Origin: Gemmatimonadota bacterium
Lineage (GTDB): Bacteria; Gemmatimonadota; Gemmatimonadetes; Gemmatimonadales; Gemmatimonadaceae
Assembly: GCA_016194585.1 (NCBI GenBank)
Contig: JACQBG010000010.1
Location: forward strand, 1-64,000
Length of the DNA stretch: 64,000 nucleotides
Reading direction: 5' to 3'
The position numbers were made by a program, and so were the translations under genes. The notes beneath the pieces are model-generated. The model saw nothing but the letters and a program-made list of their open reading frames with translations. It had not been told where the DNA came from and searched no databases. Numbering within the stretch: position 1 is the stretch's first letter; each line of letters opens with the position of its first letter. Below, in pieces: positions 22,301 to 40,787 of the stretch.

Positions 22301-22309
22301 CCGGTACAG

Positions 22310-22666
22310 TGGAGGCGGGGAGATTCGAACTCCCGTCTTGCATAAGATCTTCCGCAGCGTCTACGTGCGTATCCCACCGATTGATGTCTCCAGCGCCTGG
22401 CCAGTGGGCCGCCGAACGCTGGATGAGCCCTCTAGAGTTTCGCCCGGCGCCGGAAGGCGCGACGCTGGACTATCCCGGATTTTCGATACCCGTGAAGCCG
22501 CCCCGGGAGGGCTTCCTCATGGGCACTGCTGGACGTAACTAGAAGTTACGCAGCAAGCGCGAAGTTGTTGTTCGCAGTTGAGACTTTCCCGAGTGTTTTA
22601 CCAGGAACCCGAGGACCTGGGCACGCAACCACGGGGCCACCTACACAATCGATTCCAGTCGCCCCC
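22310..22666 (-). ncRNA. ssrA: Transfer-messenger RNA (tmRNA)
   Basis: tmRNA rescues stalled ribosomes and tags the nascent chain. The 5' end GGGGGCG pairs with CGCCTCC at the 3' end to form a 7-bp acceptor stem (one G-U). The T-arm GGGAG-TTCGAAT-CTCCC is intact. The tag frame, at 22575-22546, reads A-N-N-N-F-A-L-A-A then TAA, giving the usual ALAA degradation signal. CCA is not encoded: the base after CGCCTCC is the discriminator A, followed by CTG. Length is 357 nt, normal for the one-piece form. A possible -10 (TATATT) lies at 22679-22684. Confidence 0.96.
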
Positions 22667-36558: not shown

Positions 36559-37836
36559 CTAGCCAGCGGTGGGACTTACCTCCAGCCGAGCCATCGCATC
36601 GCCCACCGTGTGGAATGACCCGGTGACCAGGACCGTGGCCCCGCTGTCGGCGGCCCGGGCCAGCGCACGGTCGAAGTCGCGGACGAGTTCCGCCGAGAGA
36701 TTGCGCTCCCGGGCGTACGCCAGCGGCTCCGGATTGCTCCAGACCCGGTTCGACGGGGACGTCGGGGCATTCGTGATCACGAAGTGGTCGACGGCGGGGG
36801 CGAGGTGGTCCATCATCCCCCGCCAGTCCTTGTCGGCCAGCACCGAGAACACCGCGACGACGGGGCGCGGCGGTTGCACGGTCTTGAGGGTGCGGGCGAG
36901 CACGGTGGCGCCGGCGGGGTTGTGCGCGACGTCGAAGATGTAGCGCCCCGACCGGTGGAACCGCCCGGGCAGGTGCACCGCGGCGAGCCCCCGCGCGATC
37001 GCCTCGGACGTCGGGCGCATCTCCGGCGGAACGCACTCCAGCATGGCGATCGCCATCGCGGCGTTGTTCGCCTGGTGCGCGCCGAGCAGCGGCGTCCGAT
37101 AGTCCTTCCCCGCGAGCGTGAACGAGGTCCCCTCGGGAGTCACCTGCACCGCGGTCGGCCCGCCGTCGTCGAACACCGCCTGCACGGGCGAGGCCCCTCG
37201 CTCCTGCGCGTAGCGCCGCAACAGCTCCCGGATGCCCGACTCGGGCTCGCCGATCACCGCGCACACGCCGGGCTTGAAGATGCCGGCCTTCTCGAACGCG
37301 ATCTCCTCGCGCGTCGCGCCGAGATACTCGACGTGATCGATGCCGATGTTCGTGACGCCGGCGACGAGCGGCGTCACCACGTTCGTGGCGTCGAGACGAC
37401 CGCCGAGTCCGGTCTCGATGACGGCGACGTCGACGCCGTCGGCCGCGAAGAACTCGAAGGCCATCGCCGTGGTCGCCTCGAAGAACGTCGCCCCCAGCCG
37501 CTCCACTTCCGGAGTCCAGCGGTCGACGAAATCGACGATGCGCGCCGCATCCACCGGCACGCCGTCGACGAGGAACCGCTCGCGGAAATCGACGAGGTGC
37601 GGCGACGTGTAGCGTCCCACGCGCAACCCCTGCGCTCGCAGCAGCGCGTCGAGCGTCGCGCAGGTGCTCCCCTTGCCGTTCGTGCCGGCGACGTGGATCG
37701 TGCGAAGCCGGCGGTGCGGATCGCCGAGCAGCGCGAGGAATGCCTCGACGCGCTCCAGCCCAAGCTTCCAGATGCCCGTCGTGCGCGCGAAGAGGAAATC
37801 GAGCGCGTCGGCGTACGTCCTCAGGTCGACGCCCAC
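36559..37836 (-). CDS. folC: Folylpolyglutamate/dihydrofolate synthase FolC
   Basis: FolC (425 aa) adds glutamate to dihydropteroate and folates. It is a Mur-ligase-like enzyme: the P-loop GTNGKGSTCA (about 51-60) and the Mur-type block VAVIETGLGGRLDATNV are seen, with a C-terminal ligase domain. GTG start; its first 16 bp overlap the end of accD, the usual accD-folC pairing. Confidence 0.95.
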   Translation of the reverse strand: MGVDLRTYADALDFLFARTTGIWKLGLERVEAFLALLGDPHRRLRTIHVAGTNGKGSTCATLDALLRAQGLRVGRYTSPHLVDFRERFLVDGVPVDAARIVDFVDRWTPEVERLGATFFEATTAMAFEFFAADGVDVAVIETGLGGRLDATNVVTPLVAGVTNIGIDHVEYLGATREEIAFEKAGIFKPGVCAVIGEPESGIRELLRRYAQERGASPVQAVFDDGGPTAVQVTPEGTSFTLAGKDYRTPLLGAHQANNAAMAIAMLECVPPEMRPTSEAIARGLAAVHLPGRFHRSGRYIFDVAHNPAGATVLARTLKTVQPPRPVVAVFSVLADKDWRGMMDHLAPAVDHFVITNAPTSPSNRVWSNPEPLAYARERNLSAELVRDFDRALARAADSGATVLVTGSFHTVGDAMARLEVSPTAG

Positions 37837-38684
37837 CCGGTGGCGGCCGGCTTGCCGCTCATGTGCCGCAGCAGCTGGCCCACTGTCTCCTTCATCTTGT
37901 GGCGGTGCACGACGCTGTCGATCATGCCGTGCTCGAGGAGGAACTCGGCGGTCTGGAACCCCTCCGGGAGATCCTGCCCCAGCGTCTGCTTGATCACCCG
38001 GGGACCGGCGAACCCGATCACCGCGCCGGGTTCGGCGAGGATCGCGTCGCCGAGCATCGCGTAGCTCGCGCTCACGCCGCCGGTCGTCGGGTTGGTGAGG
38101 ATCGACACGTACGGGATGCGGCGCTCGGCGAGCTGCGACAGCACGGCGGAAGTCTTCGCCATCTGCATGAGCGAGAGGACCCCCTCCTGCATGCGCGCGC
38201 CGCCGGAGGCCGAGATGATGATGAGCGGGAACTTCTTCTCGAGGCTCCGCTGCGCCAGCCGCGCGATCTTCTCCCCGACGACCGAACCCATGGAACCGCC
38301 CATGAAGGCGAAGTCCATGACGCCCAGGTTGACCGGCATCTTCTCCATGGTGCCCGTCGCCGTGAGGATGGCGTCGGTGTCGCCGGCGTTGGCGAGCGCC
38401 TTCTTCAGGCGCGCCGGGTAATCTGGGAACCCCAAGGGGTCGCTCGACTTGAGGTCGGTCTCGGTCTCCTCCCAGCTATCGGCGTCGAGCAGGAGGTTGA
38501 CGTACTCGATGGCCCTGAGCCGCCGATGGTAATCACACGCCGGGCACACACTGGCGTTCCGGAGGAACTTCTCCCGGATGTCCGTATGCCCGCACGCCTC
38601 GCACTTCTCCCAGACGTCGGCGGGGATGTCGAGCCGGTTGACGCGGGGTTCGCGGGGTTTCTTTTCTTTGCGGAACCAAGCCAT
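37821..38684 (-). CDS. accD: Acetyl-CoA carboxylase carboxyltransferase subunit beta AccD
   Basis: AccD (287 aa) is one half of the carboxyltransferase that makes malonyl-CoA for fatty-acid synthesis. The N-terminal zinc ribbon has two CxxC pairs, CEACGH and CPACDYH. The crotonase-like fold has SASGGARMQEG and TNPTTGGVSASYA, forming the oxyanion holes. ATG at MAWFRKEKK is preferred. The inverted repeat described at 38704 begins 20 bp upstream of this start codon. Confidence 0.96.
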   Translation of the reverse strand: MAWFRKEKKPREPRVNRLDIPADVWEKCEACGHTDIREKFLRNASVCPACDYHRRLRAIEYVNLLLDADSWEETETDLKSSDPLGFPDYPARLKKALANAGDTDAILTATGTMEKMPVNLGVMDFAFMGGSMGSVVGEKIARLAQRSLEKKFPLIIISASGGARMQEGVLSLMQMAKTSAVLSQLAERRIPYVSILTNPTTGGVSASYAMLGDAILAEPGAVIGFAGPRVIKQTLGQDLPEGFQTAEFLLEHGMIDSVVHRHKMKETVGQLLRHMSGKPAATGWAST

Positions 38685-38703: not shown

Positions 38704-38791
38704 GGCAGTGGGAGGGCAAGGCGCCAGGGGGCGAGATCGAGTGCGAGTGGGAGCCGAGTGCGAGTGGGCCCCGAGTGGGAGTGGGAGTGGG
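38704..38791 (+). repeat. Inverted-repeat arm 1 (88 bp), GAGTGG-rich
   Basis: Matches the reverse complement of 39452-39539 at 81 of 88 positions, ungapped. It consists mainly of degenerate GAGTGG/GAGTGC hexamers. It starts 20 bp before the accD start codon. Confidence 0.95.
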
Positions 38792-38795
38792 AGGG
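38777..38795 (+). other. G-quadruplex motif in arm 1
   Basis: Four GGG tracts at 38777, 38783, 38789 and 38793 with loops of 3, 3 and 1 nt on the plus strand, which is the template strand for accD. Confidence 0.7.
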
Positions 38796-38940
38796 CAAGG
38801 GCCAGAGCCCGAGCGGGGTGCGCCGGCATCCAGCGCCTCATCTCACGAAGTCATCATGACCTCATCGGCCTCGCACGATTCCGGTCCGCACGGCGGCCGG
38901 ACGATGACGGCGCCAGGGCGCATCGACCGCAGAGTGTGGC

Positions 38941-39378
38941 ATGACGATCATCGAAGATCCGGAGTTCCGCGCCTGGGAACAGCAGGTCCGCCCATCGCTG
39001 CAGGAAGATCCCCTCTGGACCCTGCATTCGTATCGCGTCGCGATGTTCGCATTGCAGTCGGCCCAGGACGACGTCGCGCTCGCGCAGCGCAGCGGCGCCG
39101 ATCACGACATGACGGCTCAACTGCTTCGGGCGCTCGGGTCGGTGAGCGCGAACGTGGCGGAGGCATTCGGTCGTCCGACCGCCACCGATCGAAGTCGGTT
39201 CGTCAGCTATGCGATCGGCTCGGTGCGCGAAGCGATCTCCTGGTACCACGCCCTCGCGCCTTACCTCGGCGCCGGCGAGCTCGACAGGCGCCTCGAGGTC
39301 CTCTCGGAGCTTCGTCGCCTGTTGCTGGGTTATCTACGCTGGCTCAGGACTCACGCGCCGCGACTGAGGCTAGCGTAG
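38941..39378 (+). CDS. Four-helix-bundle protein (23S rRNA intervening-sequence-protein type)
   Basis: This 145-aa helical protein matches the four-helix-bundle family first known from ORFs inside 23S rRNA intervening sequences (also related to the Avd accessory protein of diversity-generating retroelements). The family core SVSANVAEAFGR (usually N-I-A-E-G) is present at about residues 67-78, followed by helices with AIGSVREAISWYHAL. Members form basic pentamers and probably bind nucleic acid; the role outside rRNA is unknown. It is antisense to all neighbours and is enclosed by an 88-bp inverted repeat. No good ribosome site is visible before the ATG. Confidence 0.8.
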   Translation: MTIIEDPEFRAWEQQVRPSLQEDPLWTLHSYRVAMFALQSAQDDVALAQRSGADHDMTAQLLRALGSVSANVAEAFGRPTATDRSRFVSYAIGSVREAISWYHALAPYLGAGELDRRLEVLSELRRLLLGYLRWLRTHAPRLRLA

Positions 39379-39444
39379 GGAGTGGAAACCTGACGCAACC
39401 CGAAGAGGGCCGATCCAGCGCAACTCCGAAGCGAAGCGCTCAAA

Positions 39445-39466
39445 CCCGTCGCCCACTCCCACTCCC
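39445..39466 (-). other. G-quadruplex motif in arm 2
   Basis: CCC tracts at 39445, 39452, 39458 and 39464 give, on the minus strand, four GGG runs with loops of 3, 3 and 4 nt. On this side the motif would be in RNA reading from rodA towards accD. Confidence 0.65.
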
Positions 39467-39539
39467 ACTCGGGGCCCACTCCCACTCGGCTCCCACTCCC
39501 ACTCGACCTCGCCCGCTCAGGCCTTGCCCTCCCACTGCC
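39452..39539 (-). repeat. Inverted-repeat arm 2 (88 bp), GAGTGG-rich
   Basis: Reverse-complement partner of 38704-38791 (92 per cent identity). It ends at the base next to the rodA stop codon (39540-39542). No target-site duplication is apparent outside the arms. Confidence 0.95.
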
Positions 39540-40787
39540 TTAGATGACGAGCGAATCCGCCCTCCCCCTCCCCTCCGCCGACAGCCGGACCAGGATCCCC
39601 ACCCCCAGCCAGCACGCCAGCATGAACGACCCGCCGTAGCTGAAGAACGGCAGCGGGATCCCCGTGATCGGCATCAGGTTCAGCGTCATCCCCACGTTCA
39701 CGAGCACGTGCACGAACCAGGTCGACACCAACCCGAACGCGAGCAGGCTCGAGAACGGGTCGGCTGAACGGGCGGCGATGCGCACGCAGCGGAGGAAGAG
39801 GAGGAGGAAGAGGGTGAGCGCCACCGTGACGCCGATGAAGCCGAGTTCCTCGCCCACCACCGGGAAGATGAAGTCCGTGTGCTGTGCCGGGAGGAACGCG
39901 AGCCGCTTCTGCGTGCCCAACGTGAAGCCCTTGCCCAGCCATCCGCCGGAGCCGATCGCCACCTGCGACTGGATCACGTGGTAGCCGCTTCGCTGCGGGT
40001 CGGTCGACGGGTCGAGGAAGACCAGCAGGCGTCGCTGTTGGTACGGATTCAGCTTCTCCCACACGATCGGCGCGACGACCCCCATCACGACGTTCGCCGA
40101 GACGATGAGCACTCCCTCGACGATGTACGGCTTGTACCAGAGCACGAGTCCGAGCAGCAGCAGGAACCACGCTCCCCACAGCCCGGTGCTGAAGGCGAGC
40201 ACGAGGCTCACCGCCGGGCTCGCGACGAGCACGAGGAGCGGCCACGACACGCCGCTCCAGAACAGCATCGCGAAGAAGATGCCGACGAACACGATGCCGG
40301 TGCCCAGGTCCGGCTGCAGCATGATGAGGAGCCACGGCACGCCGACGACGAGCGCCGGCTGCCAGAGGTCGATGAGCGACTTCGGCGGTTGCTTCCGGGC
40401 GCCGAGCACCTTCGCGAGCATGAGGACGACGGCGATCTTCGCGAGCTCCGACGGCTGGCCGATGCGCATGCCGCCGATCGCCAGCCAGCTCTTCGTGCTC
40501 GCCGCGGTGCCCGCGCCCTTGCCGACGAAGAGCAGGATGAGGAGCACGACGCACGCGCCGGCGTAGGCGGGGGTGGCGGCCCAGTCGAGGAACCGCACCG
40601 ACGGGCGGCTCGCCAGATAGGCCGCGGCGATGCCGAGCGCCACCCACGCGAGCTGGTTGTGCCACAGATGGGTCACGAGCGTCGGCACGTCGGTCTGCCC
40701 CGCCGAGAACACCATCGACACGCCGAAGCTCGAGAGGCTGAGCGCCAGCAGGACGAGCGGCCAGTCGGTGGCGACGCGCGCCTTCAC
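39540..40787 (-). CDS. rodA: Peptidoglycan glycosyltransferase RodA
   Basis: RodA (415 aa) is the SEDS-family glycan polymerase of the elongasome, working with PBP2. It has about ten membrane helices and the conserved PSELAKIAVVLMLAK, LQPDLGTGIVF, and LNLMPITGIPLPFFSYGGS segments. The GTG start overlaps the stop of mrdA as GTGA. It is the last gene of the mreBCD-mrdA-rodA operon. Confidence 0.96.
   Translation of the reverse strand: MKARVATDWPLVLLALSLSSFGVSMVFSAGQTDVPTLVTHLWHNQLAWVALGIAAAYLASRPSVRFLDWAATPAYAGACVVLLILLFVGKGAGTAASTKSWLAIGGMRIGQPSELAKIAVVLMLAKVLGARKQPPKSLIDLWQPALVVGVPWLLIMLQPDLGTGIVFVGIFFAMLFWSGVSWPLLVLVASPAVSLVLAFSTGLWGAWFLLLLGLVLWYKPYIVEGVLIVSANVVMGVVAPIVWEKLNPYQQRRLLVFLDPSTDPQRSGYHVIQSQVAIGSGGWLGKGFTLGTQKRLAFLPAQHTDFIFPVVGEELGFIGVTVALTLFLLLFLRCVRIAARSADPFSSLLAFGLVSTWFVHVLVNVGMTLNLMPITGIPLPFFSYGGSFMLACWLGVGILVRLSAEGRGRADSLVI

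Follow-up and report, generated by a model that had tools for sequence, protein, structure and literature searches.

How does a single gene of the 23S ribosomal RNA (rRNA) intervening-sequence-protein family, framed by long inverted repeats, come to lie between rodA and accD, which are immediate neighbors in element-free species? The unit in question occupies positions 38704-39539 of a 64,000-nucleotide stretch of a Gemmatimonadota genome (hereafter, the window; the source genome, 3.34 Mb in 50 contigs, is denoted G000). Comparison with related genomes leaves little doubt that the unit belongs to a family of mobile elements, of which it is a gene-bearing copy. It is probably an element of the intervening sequence (IVS) type that resides outside rRNA and whose four-helix-bundle protein acts in cis and in trans.

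The anatomy reported in an earlier note on this DNA, namely inverted 88-nt arms around 660 bp, a single antisense gene of the intervening sequence protein (IVP) family and no transposase, holds on re-examination. The two arms are identical at 81 of 88 positions (92.0%), with the pairing extendable to 95 nt at 89% identity, they consist of 6-nt and 17-nt words, and the interior from arm to arm spans 660 nt. The sole coding gene of the unit is antisense to both rodA and accD, and its product passes the cut-offs of both PF05635 and TIGR02436; no transposase is encoded inside the unit. The placement between rodA and accD stands as well, with the right arm directly abutting the rodA stop codon (39540-39542, minus strand), except that the left arm is 19 nt, rather than 20, from the accD start codon (38684). 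There is no rRNA in the window, and the unit therefore lies outside any 23S rRNA gene. Its parts and flanking genes are the following.

38704..38791, plus strand: left arm, with its G-rich strand as the top strand; one copy of a dispersed repeat, holding 17-nt units CGAGTGSGAGTGGGAGC
38792..38940, plus strand: spacer from the left arm to the gene
38941..39378, plus strand: four-helix-bundle (23S rRNA IVP / S23) gene, 145 amino acids
39379..39451, plus strand: spacer from the gene to the right arm
39452..39539, minus strand: right arm, the left arm's copy in inverted orientation, with the outer end at the rodA stop codon
39540..40787, minus strand: rodA, flanking gene (approximate start), directly beside accD in element-free species
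37821..38684, minus strand: accD, flanking gene

Occupied and empty sites

The unit is present in some and absent in other related species at one and the same junction, and is also found at other loci. When the loci are checked with true RodA and AccD protein sequences, the junction turns out to be occupied in seven species of the genus and empty in nine (G001, G003, G004, G005, G006, G008, G009, G014 and G016), with a spacing of ~20-84 bp in the empty ones. The empty G006 and G008 are sisters of the occupied G000 and G017, and the empty G014 and G016 are sisters of the occupied G007. The orientation differs as well, the element gene being antisense in G000, G017, G007 and G015 (n = 4) and sense in G002, G010 and G012 (n = 3); an exchange between the arms that inverts the gene would explain the two orientations. 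In the protein tree, most of the rodA-accD copies form one clade, within which copies from other loci, such as the one beside metK in G002, are nested.

Gene-less relatives of the unit, too, come and go. G010 and G012 are ~95% identical over a shared ~55 kb stretch in which G010 carries a gene-less palindrome, 227 nt long and composed of AGTGGGAG words, 7 nt past a TGA stop codon, at a site that is uninterrupted in G012; a second gene-less element nearby likewise differs between the two genomes.

Could the unit instead be immobile, say a palindrome with a regulatory or terminator role that is inherited at the locus? Such a static structure would fit the single protein clade of most rodA-accD copies, which implies that much of the history at this junction is vertical. 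Nevertheless, such immobility is hardly credible given the empty sites, the changed orientations, the copies at other loci and the presence or absence of elements between 95% identical genomes; the empty sites and the G010/G012 differences contradict it, and it was rejected. The earlier note had named the rodA-accD spacing and the search for further arms in the genome and its relatives as the informative comparisons. With nine empty sites and the arms dispersed (~18 other places in G000, strong matches in G017), it is not the case that all relatives keep the unit and that no other copies exist, and the same observations support the small mobile unit surmised there.

Arms with and without a gene

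Within G000, the arm is matched 26 times at E < 1e-11, in ~18 places outside the unit; six of these are tight head-to-head pairs (contigs C36, C16, C30, C25, C42 and C45) and the others are single. Among the gene-less copies listed, all 11 that are paired share the head-to-head arrangement of the arms that flank the gene. None of the gene-less copies matches the interior of the unit, and the spacer 38792-38940 has no counterpart elsewhere among the loci read. Although the coding share of the window is 94%, the arm copies are intergenic: not one of the 18 checked (the unit included) reaches more than ~35 nt into the end of a predicted gene, and nine have an end no more than 16 nt away from a predicted stop codon (the gene predictor was trained on rodA, accD, mrdA and folC). 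Among the 17 other members of the genus, strong matches are confined to G017 (16 at E < 1e-5), where a 71% identical protein is encoded between related arms at rodA-accD; the matches in G002, G010 and G015 are weak, and the remaining members have none. The dispersed arms look like non-autonomous copies. As for the unit itself, which the earlier note had called ‘non-autonomous or unrecognised', the first term is probably wrong for this copy, which looks like the gene-bearing one.

Two contigs of the source genome, at G000:C30:1-407 (L009) and G000:C7:1-300 (L014), both end inside one gene-less arm pair, the interior of which contains a terminator-like hairpin and is read in opposite orientations across the two contigs; either the assembly is ambiguous here or the population harbors a true inversion.

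Enclosure by arms is a regular property of the gene in this group. A search of 61 relatives finds the four-helix protein at 29 loci, and at all 29 inverted repeats hug the gene (local alignment detects all of them, and a blast-like pairing nearly all), with scores far beyond chance (z >= 6 against dinucleotide shuffles) at 28 loci; the weakest is L066, where the arms are rearranged. The arms are quasi-tandem arrays of short words, such as GAGTGGGAGTGGG, GTGGCTGC and GCAGGTTGCAGGTGAGGAATGCGG, which are non-homologous across elements, each element or lineage having its own, and the upstream arm is G-rich on the coding strand in 27 of 28 loci. G000 itself holds a second gene-bearing element (C8:108603-109034, L022), with a 42% identical protein and different arms (GGGAGAGACGG / GGGGGA words).

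Genomes with four-helix genes have arm-type palindromes, and the sampled genomes that lack the genes do not. A de novo scan detects 30 close palindromes away from four-helix genes in 1.18 Mb from six species that have the gene and none in 1.15 Mb from five that lack it, a difference with p 1e-9, which overstates independence because the compared species are related; the contrasts between G000 and G006 and between G007 and G016 are those of sister groups. The palindromes of G010 and G007 are made of words that match the arms of the genome's own gene-bearing elements. G015 holds four elements of the family, and the arm of one of these is dispersed in G015 only (weakly in G002) as head-to-head pairs, two of which lie beside the stop codons of trpG-like and groEL-like genes (named from their translated ends). 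At the center of many gene-less pairs in G000 and G015, a terminator-like hairpin is seen by eye. Other gene-less palindrome families of these two genomes, with CACGGAT, GCAGAGGAC and GTTAACCACTAAC words, also enclose terminator-like cores, such as GGGGAACGACAGCG...CGCTGTCGTTCCCC; examples of such families in G000 lie on contig C3 near 12036, 38226 and 103950.

This layout brings to mind the repetitive extragenic palindromes (REP) and the REP-associated tyrosine transposases (RAYT), i.e. extragenic repeats near stop codons that occur singly or as inverted pairs, and a related gene that has inverted copies on either side. The present family shares these features with REP/RAYT and its REP doublets (REPINs), and the dispersed extragenic palindromes near stops, with a gene between inverted copies, are what speaks for a REP/RAYT-like system or a family of miniature inverted-repeat transposable elements (MITEs) driven by a known transposase encoded elsewhere. 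The family differs, however, in having a four-helix-bundle gene instead of a Y1/HUH transposase and long, element-specific word-array arms. The Y1 transposase (PF01797) is absent from all 18 genomes of the genus, with control genomes positive (5 of 14), a search made for Y1 alone among the transposase families; on this absence, the REP/RAYT identity was rejected. The arms vary by element, whereas the ends of insertion sequences are fixed, and there is no clear target duplication. A system of this kind (on REP/RAYT, PMC2817692 and PMC3116915) appears highly improbable here.

The four-helix-bundle protein and a proposed mode of movement

The 145-amino acid product of the unit's gene belongs, by profile score and predicted fold, to the PF05635 / TIGR02436 family of four-helix bundles (IVP, S23). 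It matches PF05635 with E 1e-10 (42.2 bits; cut-off, 33.8) and TIGR02436 with E 8e-14 (51.7 bits; cut-off, 24), and its predicted structure (pLDDT 94.6) is closest, among solved structures, to XCC0516 of Xanthomonas campestris (Z 17.2, root-mean-square deviation 1.4 over 113), with further matches to BT_0352 (Z 16.1) and to Avd, a protein of diversity-generating retroelements (DGR; Z about 13). XCC0516 is an assembly of five four-helix bundles, according to the title of the structure paper. Across 23 relatives of the protein, 13 residues are invariant, D44, Q60, N71, R78, R84, R86, S94, R96 and E97 among the invariant ones, and the ratio of nonsynonymous to synonymous substitution rates (dN/dS) is 0.06-0.19 in six pairs of the genes from relatives, which indicates purifying selection.

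On balance, we lean toward the four-helix protein being the mobility factor of the element family. Under the proposed mechanism, the protein, probably a nucleic-acid-binding pentamer by analogy with XCC0516 and Avd, would recognize the arm words in the form of a DNA hairpin, a single strand or an RNA stem, and would promote the copying or insertion, at the ends of genes or at terminator hairpins, of DNA bounded by arms; the action would be in cis on the protein's own gene-bearing copy and in trans on the gene-less copies, and exchange between the arms would invert the gene.

Several observations weigh against this mechanism: no catalytic motif or site is recognized in the protein; phylogenetic independence is lacking in the association of gene with repeats, which may reflect co-inheritance; some genomes have more palindrome families than four-helix genes; no clear target-site duplication is found at the exact G012 empty site of the 227-nt element or at the filled and empty sites of Nostoc (at Nostoc locus B, TTCTA stands on both sides of the insertion but resembles the arm word); and several cyanobacterial and Chloroflexota homologues have weak arms or none. 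Homologues on viral contigs have partial arms at best.

The main rival is that the arms are spread by another process, with the gene riding along. The element would still be mobile or amplifying, but the protein would be a passenger or a regulator that merely sits between arms multiplied by some other host process, such as slippage, template switching at hairpins or gene conversion, or by another enzyme. Both the missing catalytic motif and the homologues without arms would fit, and the low complexity of the arms, together with the terminator-like hairpins on which many gene-less pairs are centered, favors template switching. A mere passenger is harder to reconcile with arms that enclose the gene at 29 of 29 loci in relatives and again across phyla, with gene-free congeners that lack the palindromes, and with arm words that fit the genome's own gene-bearing element. 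We consider this alternative unlikely, although less so than any other.

The same protein fold raises a further possibility, retro-mobility, whereby the arms would pair in RNA, the unit would be excised in the way that RNase III excises an rRNA IVS, the Avd-like protein would pass it on to a reverse transcriptase that works in trans, and insertion of the complementary DNA would follow. Avd itself has the fold of the unit's protein (the Z of about 13 given above) and is an accessory protein that works with nucleic acid; the IVS anatomy and the cleavage of the Coxiella IVS by RNase III (PMC4990558) point the same way. The reverse transcriptase profile PF00078, however, is absent from G000, G015, G010 and G012 and altogether from 17 of the 18 genomes of the genus, with G017 as the sole positive; hence there is no DGR-type retroelement in G000, dependence on reverse transcriptase as the general case was rejected, and retro-mobility is improbable.

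Relatives in other phyla and known repeat classes

Beyond what the earlier note had described, gene-less arms are the abundant form of the element, the architecture recurs across phyla, and there is a link to the tandem repeats of cyanobacteria and Chloroflexota. In a genome scan that yielded loci from many phyla, inverted short-word arms at z >= 6 enclose 25 of 77 loci, and direct repeats enclose seven. Among 29 Chloroflexota loci from evenly drawn genomes, 13 reach z >= 4 and seven reach z >= 6, compared with one and none, respectively, of the equal-sized control intervals in the same loci (n = 57). PF05635 is present in nine of the 10 Chloroflexota genomes with CGTNATN heptamer arrays versus 36 of the 140 without (p 8e-5; 150 genomes, the search center left out). 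In one genome with eight PF05635 genes, long head-to-head CGTGATC arrays (~300 + ~75 nt) are found at G063:C12:91769-92224. Another genome, G061, contains TAATGCG arrays, which are matched by the reversed heptamer pattern.

On annotated cyanobacterial plasmids, gene-bearing elements have heptamer arms: GGGAACA in Nostoc edaphicum and Nostoc C052, GTGTAGG in Calothrix brevissima, TGACAGG in Anabaena 90, where the four-helix gene lies between cas6 and cas4, and GGAGATA in Picosynechococcus 7003, where it lies between cas10 and cmr3. Short-word-armed four-helix genes within cas operons are represented by L252, L261 and L263 (plasmids of Anabaena 90, Pseudanabaena and Picosynechococcus 7003). Filled and empty sites can be compared at 92-97% identity in Nostoc plasmids, those of C052, C057 and ATCC 53789 having similar insertion-free segments at neighboring positions of one operon. 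On the Nostoc N6 plasmid pNPM1 (L276, 1040-1690), a broken four-helix gene is accompanied by several nested AGTCAGG/TCCTGAC arrays at a site that is empty or holds an intact gene in other Nostoc plasmids. Gene-free inverted arms occupy the TraM site of Nostoc ATCC 53789 pNsp_c (L267, 881-1187), and the TraM site of N. edaphicum carries a gene-bearing element.

IVP genes between cas genes have been listed as a possible cas-associated function (PMC3936711). In contrast to that reading, the cas6|IVP|cas4 and cas10|IVP|cmr3 copies have heptamer arms, and the cas10 and cmr3 genes of Picosynechococcus 7002 stand side by side, without an insertion; the arms and this adjacency in a close relative suggest insertion into cas operons.

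The likeness to rRNA IVS and to Avd proposed in the earlier note is supported by the XCC0516/Avd fold and by the inverted repeats around an IVP gene. Like the unit, the 23S rRNA IVS of Leptospira and Coxiella consist of a lone gene of the same protein family within inverted terminal repeats. The unit differs in that it is not in rRNA and has dispersed gene-less copies; the arms of the present elements are roughly 60-180 nt, compared with a 28-bp stem of the IVS, and the gene is kept by selection, whereas the open reading frame of the Coxiella IVS is described as decaying. In Coxiella, tandem GACAGAT heptamers, in numbers that vary among strains, directly precede the gene, and the origin of this IVS has been called unclear (PMC4990558). 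Mobility of IVS was suggested in 1993 and left open.

Like short tandemly repeated repetitive (STRR) sequences, the G000 arms are dispersed intergenic arrays of short words, which are heptamers in the Chloroflexota and cyanobacterial relatives. STRR sequences and the GGGAATC / GGGGAYT repeats of Xanthomonas and Nostoc share with the arms short G-rich words, often of 7 nt, an intergenic location and, often, head-to-head arrangement. The heptamer repeats of Xanthomonas, with 70-75 convergent pairs per genome, have been described without a tie to mobile elements and, like those of Nostoc, without an origin (PMC4692102); XCC0516 comes from a Xanthomonas of the kind that has them. Repeats of the STRR type have been described as repeats alone, with no gene tied to them in the papers searched, although a 2015 paper on a TAACTGA repeat speculated that a repeat-binding protein might be a mobile entity (PMC4679880). 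In the open-access literature, preprints being outside the scope, no paper that links IVP genes to dispersed repeats was found.

The family appears to be a new class of element because no known class combines this sole gene with element-specific word arms and gene-less copies; under a stricter filing, it could be a free-living, dispersing variant of the IVS. A wider proposal, plausible but tentative, is that IVP/S23 proteins are trans-acting mobility factors that recognize repeated short words and have spread arrays of them, inverted and tandem, in Gemmatimonadota, Chloroflexota, cyanobacteria and probably Xanthomonas, with rRNA IVS, STRR sequences and the IVPs of cas operons as local forms, without any known transposase or reverse transcriptase. 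A widespread class of repeats in bacterial DNA may then have the four-helix protein as its driver, one so far unrecognized, and a single answer may apply to three puzzles: the role of the four-helix protein of IVS (dating from the early 1990s), the origin of the heptamer repeats in cyanobacteria, Xanthomonas and others, and the presence of IVP genes in cas and conjugation operons. If so, the known mobility systems would be joined by one that relies on a protein fold without a known role in transposition, and the element would have to be taken into account when repeats are annotated, terminators predicted and cas genes discovered; Nostoc and Picosynechococcus offer culturable, named cases with filled and empty sites.

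Elsewhere in the window, an ordinary transfer-messenger RNA (tmRNA) gene is located at 22307-22666 on the minus strand (Rfam RF00023).
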